A DNA stretch of 64,000 bases from Hymenobacter negativus (lineage in GTDB: Bacteria > Bacteroidota > Bacteroidia > Cytophagales > Hymenobacteraceae). The notes below the pieces were generated by a model that was not told where the DNA came from, did not search any database, and worked only from the letters and a program-made list of their open reading frames with translations. The stretch lies in NCBI RefSeq assembly GCF_017571495.1, contig NZ_JAGETZ010000001.1, forward strand, positions 744,001 through 808,000, in the 5' to 3' direction. Each line of letters begins with the position of its first letter. The stretch's first letter is position 1. Shown piece by piece: positions 47,885 to 50,076 of the stretch. A program made the position numbers and the translations under genes.

Positions 47885-48673
47885 TTACAAGTACGAAGAG
47901 CGCACTGCCTCAATGCCAAAGTATACGTGGAGCAGGTTGGCAATGCCTTCCGAAATGCCGCTAAGCTGCGGGTCGTGCTTTAGGTCCAGTTCAGCCAAAA
48001 AGGCCGTTAACTCCTCTTTAATAGCGGGGTCCTCTTCCTCCATACGACCAGCAGTTTCCTCATTGAAATACCCAAGGTAGCGCCGCAAAGCAGTTTGCTT
48101 ACTAGCGCTTGTTCCATAACGCCTTTGGCGAGAACTACCCTCTGATACCAGGTGGCTGGATGCCTGTTGTAGCATCCAGCCAGCGTAACGCTGTTTGCGG
48201 AATAATATCGAAAAATCGTCGAAAACCGTAAGGGCAAAATCGTAACGAAATGTATTTGCGTTACCTGTAGCCATCAGGAAAAGCGTGTCGTCATCTATAT
48301 GATATGCGCTTGTGCTACAAGTTTCAACGCGGAAAAATTTTGCCTCGGAATTCAATTGCAGGGTACCCCTATCAATGAGGTAATCAGCCGCATGAAAGTG
48401 GTGGTTCACCAACTGCACCGAATCAGGTAAACGGAGCGCTACACTGTGCAGCAAGCAGGTATCTTGGTCAAAGAGCAGCGTGTCCACAGCATCTCCCAAC
48501 CAGCTCCAGCTGCCACGCGATGCCACTGCTGAAGCCTCTAATTCGTACCCATCACAAAAAGCCCCAGCCCAAATACACCTGCCGGCCAAGTACCAGTCAG
48601 GCAGGTGAACGGTGGCTGTCCTTTTACCAAGCACTAGCTCGACTAATACATTATTTGTTAAGCCACACAGCAT
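47885..48673 (-). CDS. Hypothetical protein of unknown family
   Basis: A 262-residue soluble protein. It contains NVLVELVLGKRTATVHLPDWYLAGRC, LLHSVALRLPDSVQLVNHHFHAADYLIDRG and a C-terminal helical part (MEEEDPAIKEELTAFLAELDLKHD). I recognise no motif. ATG 48673 is preferred because the stop of the upstream gene lies 10 bases before it. It may form a two-gene unit with that gene. Composition is less GC-rich than the average gene here. Confidence 0.55.
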   Translation of the reverse strand: MLCGLTNNVLVELVLGKRTATVHLPDWYLAGRCIWAGAFCDGYELEASAVASRGSWSWLGDAVDTLLFDQDTCLLHSVALRLPDSVQLVNHHFHAADYLIDRGTLQLNSEAKFFRVETCSTSAYHIDDDTLFLMATGNANTFRYDFALTVFDDFSILFRKQRYAGWMLQQASSHLVSEGSSRQRRYGTSASKQTALRRYLGYFNEETAGRMEEEDPAIKEELTAFLAELDLKHDPQLSGISEGIANLLHVYFGIEAVRSSYL

Positions 48674-48683
48674 ATATAGAAAG

Positions 48684-48968
48684 TTAGCCGCTACAGAAAT
48701 ATGTGCACTGCACACGGTCGGTGTAGGGATGCCCTACAAAGGAGCTGCCCACTTGCAGGTAGCTGCTTTCAACGGCCTTGGTTCTTTCGGCCGGTAGCAG
48801 GTGCACACGGCCGTGCGACTCGCCCAGGGACAGGGTCGTTTCTACGTTGGCCTTGGCGCTAAGCCAAGTCACAAGCTCATTTGAGGGCGTGGTGTGAATG
48901 AAGCCGGAGTCGGAACAGGTGCTTTCTGCGCCTGCTGGGCACCGGGTAAAGGTAAGGCGGGCCGCCAT
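48684..48968 (-). CDS. Small hypothetical protein upstream of the 47885 gene
   Basis: A 94-residue frame (MAARLTFTRCPAGAESTCSD...) with mixed protein-like composition, strand-like segments (NVETTLSLGESHGRVHLLPA) and five cysteines. It ends 10 bases before the next same-strand gene, which suits an operon. Its start is 57 bases from the palindrome array. Family unknown; it could also be a fragment. Confidence 0.45.
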   Translation of the reverse strand: MAARLTFTRCPAGAESTCSDSGFIHTTPSNELVTWLSAKANVETTLSLGESHGRVHLLPAERTKAVESSYLQVGSSFVGHPYTDRVQCTYFCSG

Positions 48969-49024: not shown

Positions 49025-49285
49025 TCCAAACGTCGGGAAGGCAGGTTTTGGCGCTTAAGGGAGGCTTCCAAACGTTTGGAAAGGAGATTTGGGGCCAAAA
49101 CCTGTCATCCAAACGTTTGGAAGCAGGTTTTGGCCCTTGCACTGGCCATCCAAACGTTTGGAAGGAGGTTTTGGGGTCAAACCCTCCCCTCCCGACGTTT
49201 GGAAAGAGGTTTTGGGGTCAAACCCTCCCCTCCCGACGTTTGGAAAGAGGTTTTGAGCGGCAAGGAAGTCCTCCAAACGTTTGGA
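49025..49285. repeat. Array of seven palindromes with a 41-base period
   Basis: The 14-base palindrome TCCAAACGTTTGGA or a variant starts at 49025, 49067, 49108, 49149, 49190, 49231 and 49272. The steps are 42, 41, 41, 41, 41 and 41 bases. Copy 1 (TCCAAACGTCGGGA) is the reverse complement of copies 5 and 6 (TCCCGACGTTTGGA). Between them lies AGGTTTTGG, often paired with a CAAAACC or CAAACCC, a second weaker palindrome. The between-palindrome segments are related to each other, and two share GGTTTTGGGGTCAAACCCTCC-like sequence, so this is not a CRISPR. It fills the gap between divergent genes. Confidence 0.85.
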
Positions 49286-49371
49286 TGACTCCTTGCTACG
49301 GTGAAAATATTACTGGGAAGCAATAGTTTACCTACCTTACCACTTCCATAATCATTTATTCCCAGTTTCCC

Positions 49372-50076
49372 ATGTTCCTACCGTTTCTCAAGAACCCGTT
49401 CGCCTCCAAAAACCTGGCCCGCGAAGACTTCCGCGACCTCATGGCCGGCACCCTCACCCGCATGGCGGGTCAGAACGCCGCCGGCCTATACACAGCCCAG
49501 ATAGCCGCCCTGCAGCCCCACCACGACGCCTACGCGACCTTCCTGGGCACGCAGGATGTGAACCTGGGCCAGCGCATGGGCAGCACCGACGTGGTCAACC
49601 AGCTGCTGGCCGACTTCAGGCGCTTCGCCAAAGAAGAGCTGCTCGTCGACGTGGCCTACGTCTTCGGCCGCAAAACCCCCGATGCCGTGGCCCTGGCCGC
49701 TTTCCTGCCCCAGGGCCGCTCCGAATACAACGGCGTCACGCTGCTCACCCTGCCCACCCTGCTCGAGCGCGCGGCCACCCTCACCGCTACCTATAAGGAT
49801 GCCCTCGGCAAGGACCTGGCCGACAAAGCCGCCTCTTTCAAGAAGAACTACGACACGGACCGTGAGCTGCAAGGCCAAAGCAAAGGCGCCGTGCAGGGCG
49901 ACAGCAAGGCAGAAAAGAAGCTGCGCAAAGCCGCCGCCCGCCAGCTCAAGCTCAACCTGCTTGAGCAGGTGAAGCAACACATCGACACCCCCGACGACGT
50001 GAAGGCCCTCTACGACCCAAAAATTTTTACGCAGCCCACCAAGCCCGCTCCGGGCGCTGCCCCTACCGCCCCGTAG
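49372..50076 (+). CDS. Hypothetical helical protein downstream of the palindrome array
   Basis: A 234-residue, mainly helical soluble protein. The N-terminus MFLPFLKNPFASKNLAREDFRDLMAG is followed by NLGQRMGSTDVVNQLLADFRRFAKEELLVDVAYVFGRKTPDAVALAAFLPQGRSEYNG, then a charged helix with YKDALGKDLADKAASFKKNYDTDRELQGQSKG. The C-terminus is Pro/Ala-rich. No family is known to me. Its start is 86 bases after the last palindrome, so the array is in position to control it. Confidence 0.65.
   Translation: MFLPFLKNPFASKNLAREDFRDLMAGTLTRMAGQNAAGLYTAQIAALQPHHDAYATFLGTQDVNLGQRMGSTDVVNQLLADFRRFAKEELLVDVAYVFGRKTPDAVALAAFLPQGRSEYNGVTLLTLPTLLERAATLTATYKDALGKDLADKAASFKKNYDTDRELQGQSKGAVQGDSKAEKKLRKAAARQLKLNLLEQVKQHIDTPDDVKALYDPKIFTQPTKPAPGAAPTAP

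Follow-up and report, generated by a model that had tools for sequence, protein, structure and literature searches.

A recurring DNA array often adjoins members of at least three poorly understood Bacteroidota protein families; its period, conserved across unrelated letters, comes in multiples of about 21 bp, equal to two turns of B-DNA. The best explanation, with a probability of about one half, is that the array serves in cis as a DNA platform for assembly of the adjacent gene's protein; the best guess for its role is chromosome-organising or anchoring.

The window (64,000 nucleotides of a Hymenobacter negativus contig) contains the following features; palindromes and array are given without strand.

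49025–49290: full extent of the alternating-dyad array; the secondary (B) dyads are offset by about 20.5 bp from the primary ones (centre to centre)
49025–49038: palindrome copy 1, variant TCCAAACGTCGGGA
49067–49080: palindrome copy 2, perfect TCCAAACGTTTGGA
49108–49121: palindrome copy 3, perfect 14-mer
49149–49162: palindrome copy 4, perfect 14-mer
49190–49203: palindrome copy 5, TCCCGACGTTTGGA, reverse complement of copy 1
49231–49244: palindrome copy 6, identical to copy 5 (TCCCGACGTTTGGA)
49272–49285: palindrome copy 7, perfect 14-mer
49333–49341, plus strand: TACCTTACC block in the array–gene gap, conserved in part among orthologs (alignment of 10)
49372–50076, plus strand: partner gene encoding a 234-aa protein of an unnamed family; 9 of 10 putative orthologs, this gene included, have an array no more than 450 bp upstream

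The seven 14-bp palindromes, four of them the perfect 14-mer, follow each other in steps of 42, 41, 41, 41, 41 and 41 bp, exactly as originally predicted, and copy 1 was confirmed as the reverse complement of copies 5 and 6 (TCCAAACGTCGGGA and TCCCGACGTTTGGA). The weaker second palindrome that had been proposed was also recovered; this element (GGTTTTGG..CCAAAACC) is imperfect and alternates with the primary palindromes. TRF returned period 41 and, with a higher score, period 82. On the alternating-palindrome detector (cut-off 9) the array scored 20, the rest of the window contained nothing at or above the cut-off, and the highest score in 5 simulations of the window by a first-order Markov model (the "shuffles" of this work) was 8. 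A 12-mer with up to 2 mismatches gave 10 matches in the window against 3.6 expected, a count that was also reached in 1 of 100 simulations; the striking feature of the array is its even spacing, and less so the 12-mer count. The flanking genes are divergent, as had been claimed; the upstream minus-strand ORFs (48684–48968 and 47885–48715) gave no Pfam match at E up to 0.1. These two ORFs overlap and could be a single gene with a frameshift.

Strong matches to the partner gene (55–100% identity, taken as orthologs) were found in 10 of 120 Hymenobacter genomes, own genome included, and weaker matches in 10 more. A 41–43-bp array was present in the 450-nt flank of 9 of the 10 orthologs (exception: G067), always upstream, and its palindromes differed (CCAAACGTTTGG, TTACCAACGTTGGTAA, TTACCATCGTTGGTAA, CTCCCATCGTCGGGAG and others). 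A profile of 19 relatives gave 122 matches, some of them fragments, in 39 of the 120 genomes, with up to 10 per genome; the family was also found in 20 of 395 genomes drawn across class Bacteroidia, 2 of those 20 being Hymenobacter. The orthologs are under purifying selection (dN/dS 0.28–0.59; 8 sequences, 28 pairs); predicted pI: median 8.9, 10th–90th percentile 4.9–9.6. Pfam and NCBIfam gave nothing above cut-off for 7 + 4 family proteins, and the window protein matched 0 Pfam families at E up to 1. No DNA-binding domain, ParB and helix-turn-helix included, was recognisable in Pfam, NCBIfam, PADLOC, PHROGs and PDB sequences; PADLOC returned one weak PglX match (E = 0.006) for 8 proteins, and PHROGs and PDB sequences returned weak matches only. 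Searches of plasmid, phage and viral collections with the window protein, and of plasmid and viral collections with the Carboxylicivirga DUF6261 protein, gave no match. AlphaFold2 models built without an alignment were of unusable quality (pLDDT 37 and 45) and contained mainly helices; the protein is small and probably helical.

Association of arrays with genes was measured by one autocorrelation (lags 12–65, score ≥2.6) on both 450-nt flanks. Forty Hymenobacter members were picked from the 122 matches regardless of their flanks, two of them (L173, L178) previously seen with arrays; control genes were taken from the same and other Hymenobacter genomes. A 41–43-bp period was found at 37 of the 40 members (30 arrays 3', 7 arrays 5'). 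The member loci found earlier (L113–L171; three loci without a member ORF were dropped) comprised 37 distinct genes, 35 of them outside the 40, and 30 of these 35 had a 41–43-bp array. In total, 67 of 75 Hymenobacter members had the array within 450 bp, 43 arrays 3' and 24 arrays 5'; the 75 include the 10 orthologs and hence the window gene itself, which was found through its array. The array was likewise present at 25 of 28 loci of the class search; two of the 28 are Hymenobacter, which leaves 26 members from other Bacteroidia, and 23 of those have the array, always 5'. No member locus was above threshold at a period other than 41–43 bp.

Among control Hymenobacter genes an array was scored at 10 of 636, including two flanks of L073, a repetitive stretch without visible palindrome array, and the neighbour of a member (L101). 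The earlier palindrome-based detector marked 28 of the 40 members and found 10 arrays in 1.2 Mb of background, one of them at a member; its background arrays L217, L223 and L225 lie inside ORFs. In 400 kb of other family-carrying Bacteroidia genomes a strong period was found at 18 of 246 control genes (lag 21 at eight, 42 at eight, 22 and 63 at one each), which counts against exclusivity of the gene–array linkage. Both control counts, being arrays away from family genes, also speak against the platform.

The DUF6261 (PF19775) genes resemble the window family in array period, with an array at 6 of 8 loci, all 5' (5 of 7 leaving out Carboxylicivirga, which was found through its array), although a sequence relation between the two families was undetectable (hhalign probability 1.5%) and the window protein did not match the DUF6261 profile. 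In two of the background arrays, L280 and L284, the gene that follows immediately downstream is small and unnamed (L280:7308–7958 and L284:6861–7499). The L284 protein gave weak matches to the window-family and DUF6261 profiles (E about 0.04–0.05). The L280 gene was used as seed of a third family (about 210 aa, weak fibronectin-III match in the C-terminal part), relatives of which occur in 14 of 149 class genomes. Of its 30 loci, seed included, 22 were above threshold, at lag 41–42 (10), 20–21 (10) or 63 (2), and none of the 30 at any other lag; 25 of 28 upstream flanks beat 20 of 20 simulations, 24 of them at lag 20–21, 41–42 or 63 and one at 14. The palindromes of this family are weaker (8 of 28 marked by the detector). 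Periods of 21 bp were observed at L296 and L300, and of 63 bp at L303 and L304. The repeat quantum thus seems to be two helical turns. Profile comparison suggests that the third family is distantly related to DUF6261 (E = 1.4e-4, probability 52%); the same comparison with the window family suggested no relation (probability 5%). Helical phasing, assumed in the original prediction for the window array, is strongly supported and general, the periods above threshold being 41–43 bp in the family of the window gene and 20–21, 41–42 or 63 bp in the third family; the proposal of a lineage repeat proved too narrow, since further families of Bacteroidia show the same geometry with other letters.

Distances between strong palindrome centres, counted at 83 loci with spacing unconstrained, peaked at 42 bp (137 against 3 simulated) and 84 bp (91 against 3), with a smaller peak at 21 bp (27 against 4); the 83-locus set, which also served for stem mismatches, pI and unit identity at lag 42, is without some DUF6261 misses and two orthologs that are included in the association counts. 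With 10.5 bp to the turn, 42 bp correspond to four turns. The letters of the array turn over faster than the adjacent protein: the L128 and L131 proteins are 88% identical over 216 aa, yet unrelated palindromes adjoin them. Such a pairing is odd for a sequence-reading protein, and on the platform reading either shape recognition or fast-evolving specificity must be assumed. Protein identity and motif similarity were compared over 37 arrays (616 pairs from different genomes, excluding L201 and any locus at which no palindrome was called): Spearman 0.08, Mantel p = 0.08; mean motif similarity was 0.64 above 70% protein identity (24 pairs) against 0.39 below 25% (473 pairs). Protein–motif coevolution, as a candidate, was weak in this Mantel test, and no specificity-determining protein segment stood out. 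Unit similarities of 0.69 against 0.63 and of 0.75 against 0.70 lend modest support, at unit level, to a concerted change of units. A passive minisatellite, arising by slippage and template switching at palindromes with no selected function, would account for the fast turnover, the homogenisation within arrays and the occurrence of arrays elsewhere; it is made very improbable by a helical period that stays constant over unrelated sequences and by the tight linkage to particular gene families.

Mismatches in the stems were read on the gene strand. The stems of 58 arrays contained G-T 55 and A-C 55 (5' arrays 25:35, 3' arrays 30:20), while terminator-like hairpins, taken as positive control, gave G-T 52 against A-C 23 in 154 with member loci included and 44:18 in 125 with member loci left out (p = 0.001; arrays against terminators p = 0.01). 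Since the stems lack an excess of G-T over A-C, selection probably acts on duplex DNA; an RNA-helix reading of the stems was not supported by these counts. Asymmetric palindrome variants occur in both orientations (14 against 10 over nine arrays; two arrays 3:0). A hairpin with T-run was found within 110 nt of the stop codon in 12 of 40 loci; in L180, L188, L189 and L208 this hairpin is itself the first unit of the array, which would place the remaining units beyond a terminator. A search restricted to 250 bp placed the last dyad centre 46–134 bp ahead of the start codon at 28 of 29 loci, and a TACCTTACC-like block occupies the array–gene gap of the window-gene orthologs. Taken together, the stem counts, the variants in both orientations, the upstream placement and the first-unit hairpins favour duplex DNA.

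These data bear on an RNA array, the transcribed tandem hairpins of which would bind the protein in the manner of type III toxin–antitoxin RNA or of TIGR-Tas-like guides, a reading that we regard as unlikely. On the coding strand, 5' arrays have B centres rich in A (461 A against 258 T), a strand asymmetry that counts against duplex DNA and could point to RNA loops; outside Hymenobacter the A palindromes of arrays are relaxed at their central bases; and the stretches between A palindromes of Hymenobacter 3' arrays are only 37–68% identical between units, which leaves room for variable spacers there. Besides the stems, the two orientations and the terminators, the periods in multiples of 21 bp argue against it, and 9 loci gave nothing in Rfam at gathering thresholds. 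Several arrays outside Hymenobacter (L232, L236, L237, L239, L240) are without variable spacers, because their units are 93–95% identical at lag 42 over the whole unit. In type III toxin–antitoxin systems the RNA repeats are transcribed ahead of the toxin gene, in one transcript; here 43 of 67 Hymenobacter arrays lie 3' and the stems show no wobble bias.

TIGR-Tas, in which some arrays consist of stem-loops and contain parts described as "variable but consistently palindromic", is the closest architecture in print among the literature searched, as far as the available part of the source goes (PMC12045711). There, too, two alternating repeats that differ between loci lie up- or downstream of a small protein gene, a Nop-domain gene, and this likeness is a further point for an RNA array. 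The present arrays differ in their units of about 42 bp against 36 nt, in stems without an RNA wobble signature, and in homogeneous arrays without variable spacers, the diverged Hymenobacter 3' arrays (37–68% identical) standing apart in this respect. Nop and IS110 gave no Pfam match here; the known Nop link is structural, and the single-sequence models have pLDDT 37 and 45. A CRISPR array is distinguished by unique spacers, the units here being homogeneous, and by cas genes, for which conserved neighbours were tested and none found.

Binding sites upstream of a gene, through which it and sometimes its neighbours are autoregulated, would fit the window locus, the last dyad centre of which lies 94 bp ahead of the start codon. 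Every array detected at a window-gene ortholog (9 of 9), a DUF6261 gene (6 of 6) or a non-Hymenobacter member (23 of 23) is 5'; the distance to the start codon and the TACCTTACC-like block in the orthologs are in keeping with such operators. The block is possibly a −7 promoter element, which would place the array upstream of the promoter; a promoter scan of the array–gene gap at 28 loci gave a mean excess of 0.01 ± 0.14, against 0.29 ± 0.15 upstream of the array. The operator for a dimeric regulator put forward in the original prediction thus suits the window locus and fails for the family, as 43 of 67 Hymenobacter arrays are 3' of the gene; this count rules out operators as the sole general reading. 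Some satellite arrays moreover sit between convergent genes, and operator arrays are altogether quite unlikely as an explanation. Autoregulation at 5' arrays, in addition to a platform, is possible.

The own genome, 7.1 Mb in 40 contigs, contains 7 copies of the exact 14-mer, 4 in the window array and 3 at C38:243317–243454, and 0 copies of the reversed, non-complemented 14-mer used as control. The second array, with steps of about 41 bp or twice that, sits between convergent genes read as SulP-like transporter and thioesterase. Scattered copies without phasing or conserved neighbours, which would have spoken against the original prediction, were not the pattern found. A search for two related palindromes 28–30 bp apart gave a match in 6 of 120 Hymenobacter genomes; in G011 an array lies between apparently the same convergent genes, with palindromes partly different and pitch unchanged. 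A de novo scan of 800 kb yielded, besides own-motif arrays, L092, L093 and L097 (in G104 and G069) with unrelated sequence and the same pitch, and also short matches of 2–4 centres, of which at least some resemble terminators; from the own genome, the 400 kb yielded only such short matches, and simulated sequence gave one match (score 9). The own-motif scan of genome contigs gave 9 stretches, two being Hymenobacter arrays; Carboxylicivirga sp. M1479 carries a true array with the same palindrome as the window and a different secondary element. In G000, G022, G069, G011 and G104 at least one array elsewhere has the palindrome of the gene-linked array; this sharing suggests that the arrays exchange sequence or have a trans factor in common. 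G104, G069 and G060 also contain arrays with palindromes unlike those of any linked array found, a result that counts against the platform. The strong arrays L212:18303–18533, L093:12163–12373 and L097:12209–12419 adjoin no recognised family gene, and their palindromes are unmatched to linked arrays; they may be satellites or partners of further families.

Satellite arrays could also be non-autonomous offspring of a REPtron-like element, the protein of which creates, mobilises or homogenises its own palindromic units. In REP/RAYT systems palindromes are tied to a dedicated gene and have copies elsewhere in the genome, according to the available part of the source (PMC3733652), and the gene paired with its own palindromes and satellites here resembles them. 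The distant arrays sharing a linked palindrome in five genomes are to be expected from such an element, as is the mixture of two unit kinds in one array (L044). An array-like run of CCGGACGTCCGG palindromes was also observed in frame within a leuS-like ORF (825 aa, 3' end open) at L052:1485–1652 of G132, where it adds a Pro/Gly/Ala-rich insertion; this run fits a mobile unit as well, and G132 is outside the 39 genomes with a family match. The proteins scanned here, however, gave no Y1 transposase match in Pfam, the array position is kept between species (9 of 10 orthologs), the own exact 14-mer is confined to two arrays, and the other arrays of G104, G069 and G060 have palindromes matched to no linked array found. 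The tight 21/42-bp phase and the absence of a GTAG or CGTC end tag from most consensus palindromes (by eye) are further differences from REP/BIME-RAYT, and a REPtron-like origin is judged unlikely. Another element of Bacteroidota, the BrickBuilt MITE of Porphyromonas gingivalis, likewise has intergenic tandem repeats with dyad symmetry (23 nt); it has a leader and tail, and no linked protein gene is reported in the available part of the article (PMC4596501).

The partition- or condensation-type site named in the original prediction provided the best analogy, F-plasmid sopC. The sopC site lies just 3' of sopB. As in ParABS/sopC, tandem palindromic sites at helical spacing were found near a gene: sopC consists of twelve 43-bp tandem repeats holding ten 16-bp inverted repeats, in the available text of PMC6238139, and the present arrays of about 42-bp repeats with 14–16-bp dyads and an adjoining protein gene. 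The resemblance does not extend to a conserved neighbour or to the protein. Clustering of neighbours (ORFs ≥120 aa, about 2.5 kb each side, 40 member loci) gave a largest cluster of 5 loci, hence no constant partner such as ParA, and the window-family proteins have no ParB or helix-turn-helix match. Unlike F-plasmid sopC, the arrays are chromosomal with many paralogs (two protein queries gave no match in the plasmid collection), carry dyads also midway between the main palindromes, and change freely in sequence. Each of TIGR-Tas, type III toxin–antitoxin, REP-RAYT and ParABS fails in a tested feature, and the interpretation first offered for the window array is, as a whole, partly supported.

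On the platform reading, the partner protein would bind the array as duplex DNA, probably cooperatively, because every site is on the same helix face. A nucleoprotein complex, comparable to that of SopB on sopC, would then build on the array and serve to condense DNA locally, to anchor it or to segregate it, and the same protein would recruit satellite arrays from other parts of the genome. In favour of the platform, the protein gene and the array are physically linked, the linkage is conserved across Hymenobacter and other Bacteroidia, and dyads alternate in the window family; the two-turn period, a turnover of letters faster than that of the protein, stems free of a wobble signature and the purifying selection on orthologs are further points for it. 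Points against it, besides those already named, are the lack of a recognisable DNA-binding domain, the A-rich B centres of 5' arrays, the modest support for concerted change and the spread of predicted pI. A wider reading, which is tentative and rather doubtful, is a phylum-wide module in which selection keeps only the DNA geometry (repeats, mostly dyads, in multiples of two turns) while the letters drift; the neighbouring proteins would read shape, phase or extruded cruciforms, and at least three families (the window family, DUF6261 and the family of about 210 aa) would share the module. If true, this would be a new kind of chromosomal nucleoprotein system.

The open-access literature searched (DUF6261; palindromic or tandem repeats in Bacteroidetes, Bacteroidota and Hymenobacter; subscription papers and preprints mostly outside its scope) did not describe the association of array and gene. 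Well over a hundred anonymous Bacteroidota genes are now tied to a concrete DNA partner (the 122 matches in Hymenobacter alone, fragments among them), which gives a first functional lead for the two unnamed families and for DUF6261. Should the proteins assemble on the arrays, they would represent an undescribed bacterial way to mark or organise chromosomal loci, and the arrays would be DNA conserved for helical geometry over sequence and missed by ordinary homology searches.

A secondary element resembling CCG(G)AAAAC was observed to recur in 5' arrays with differing main palindromes (L172, L175, L176, L177, L207, L239–L241); in some subfamilies the weaker dyad may be better conserved than the main palindrome.
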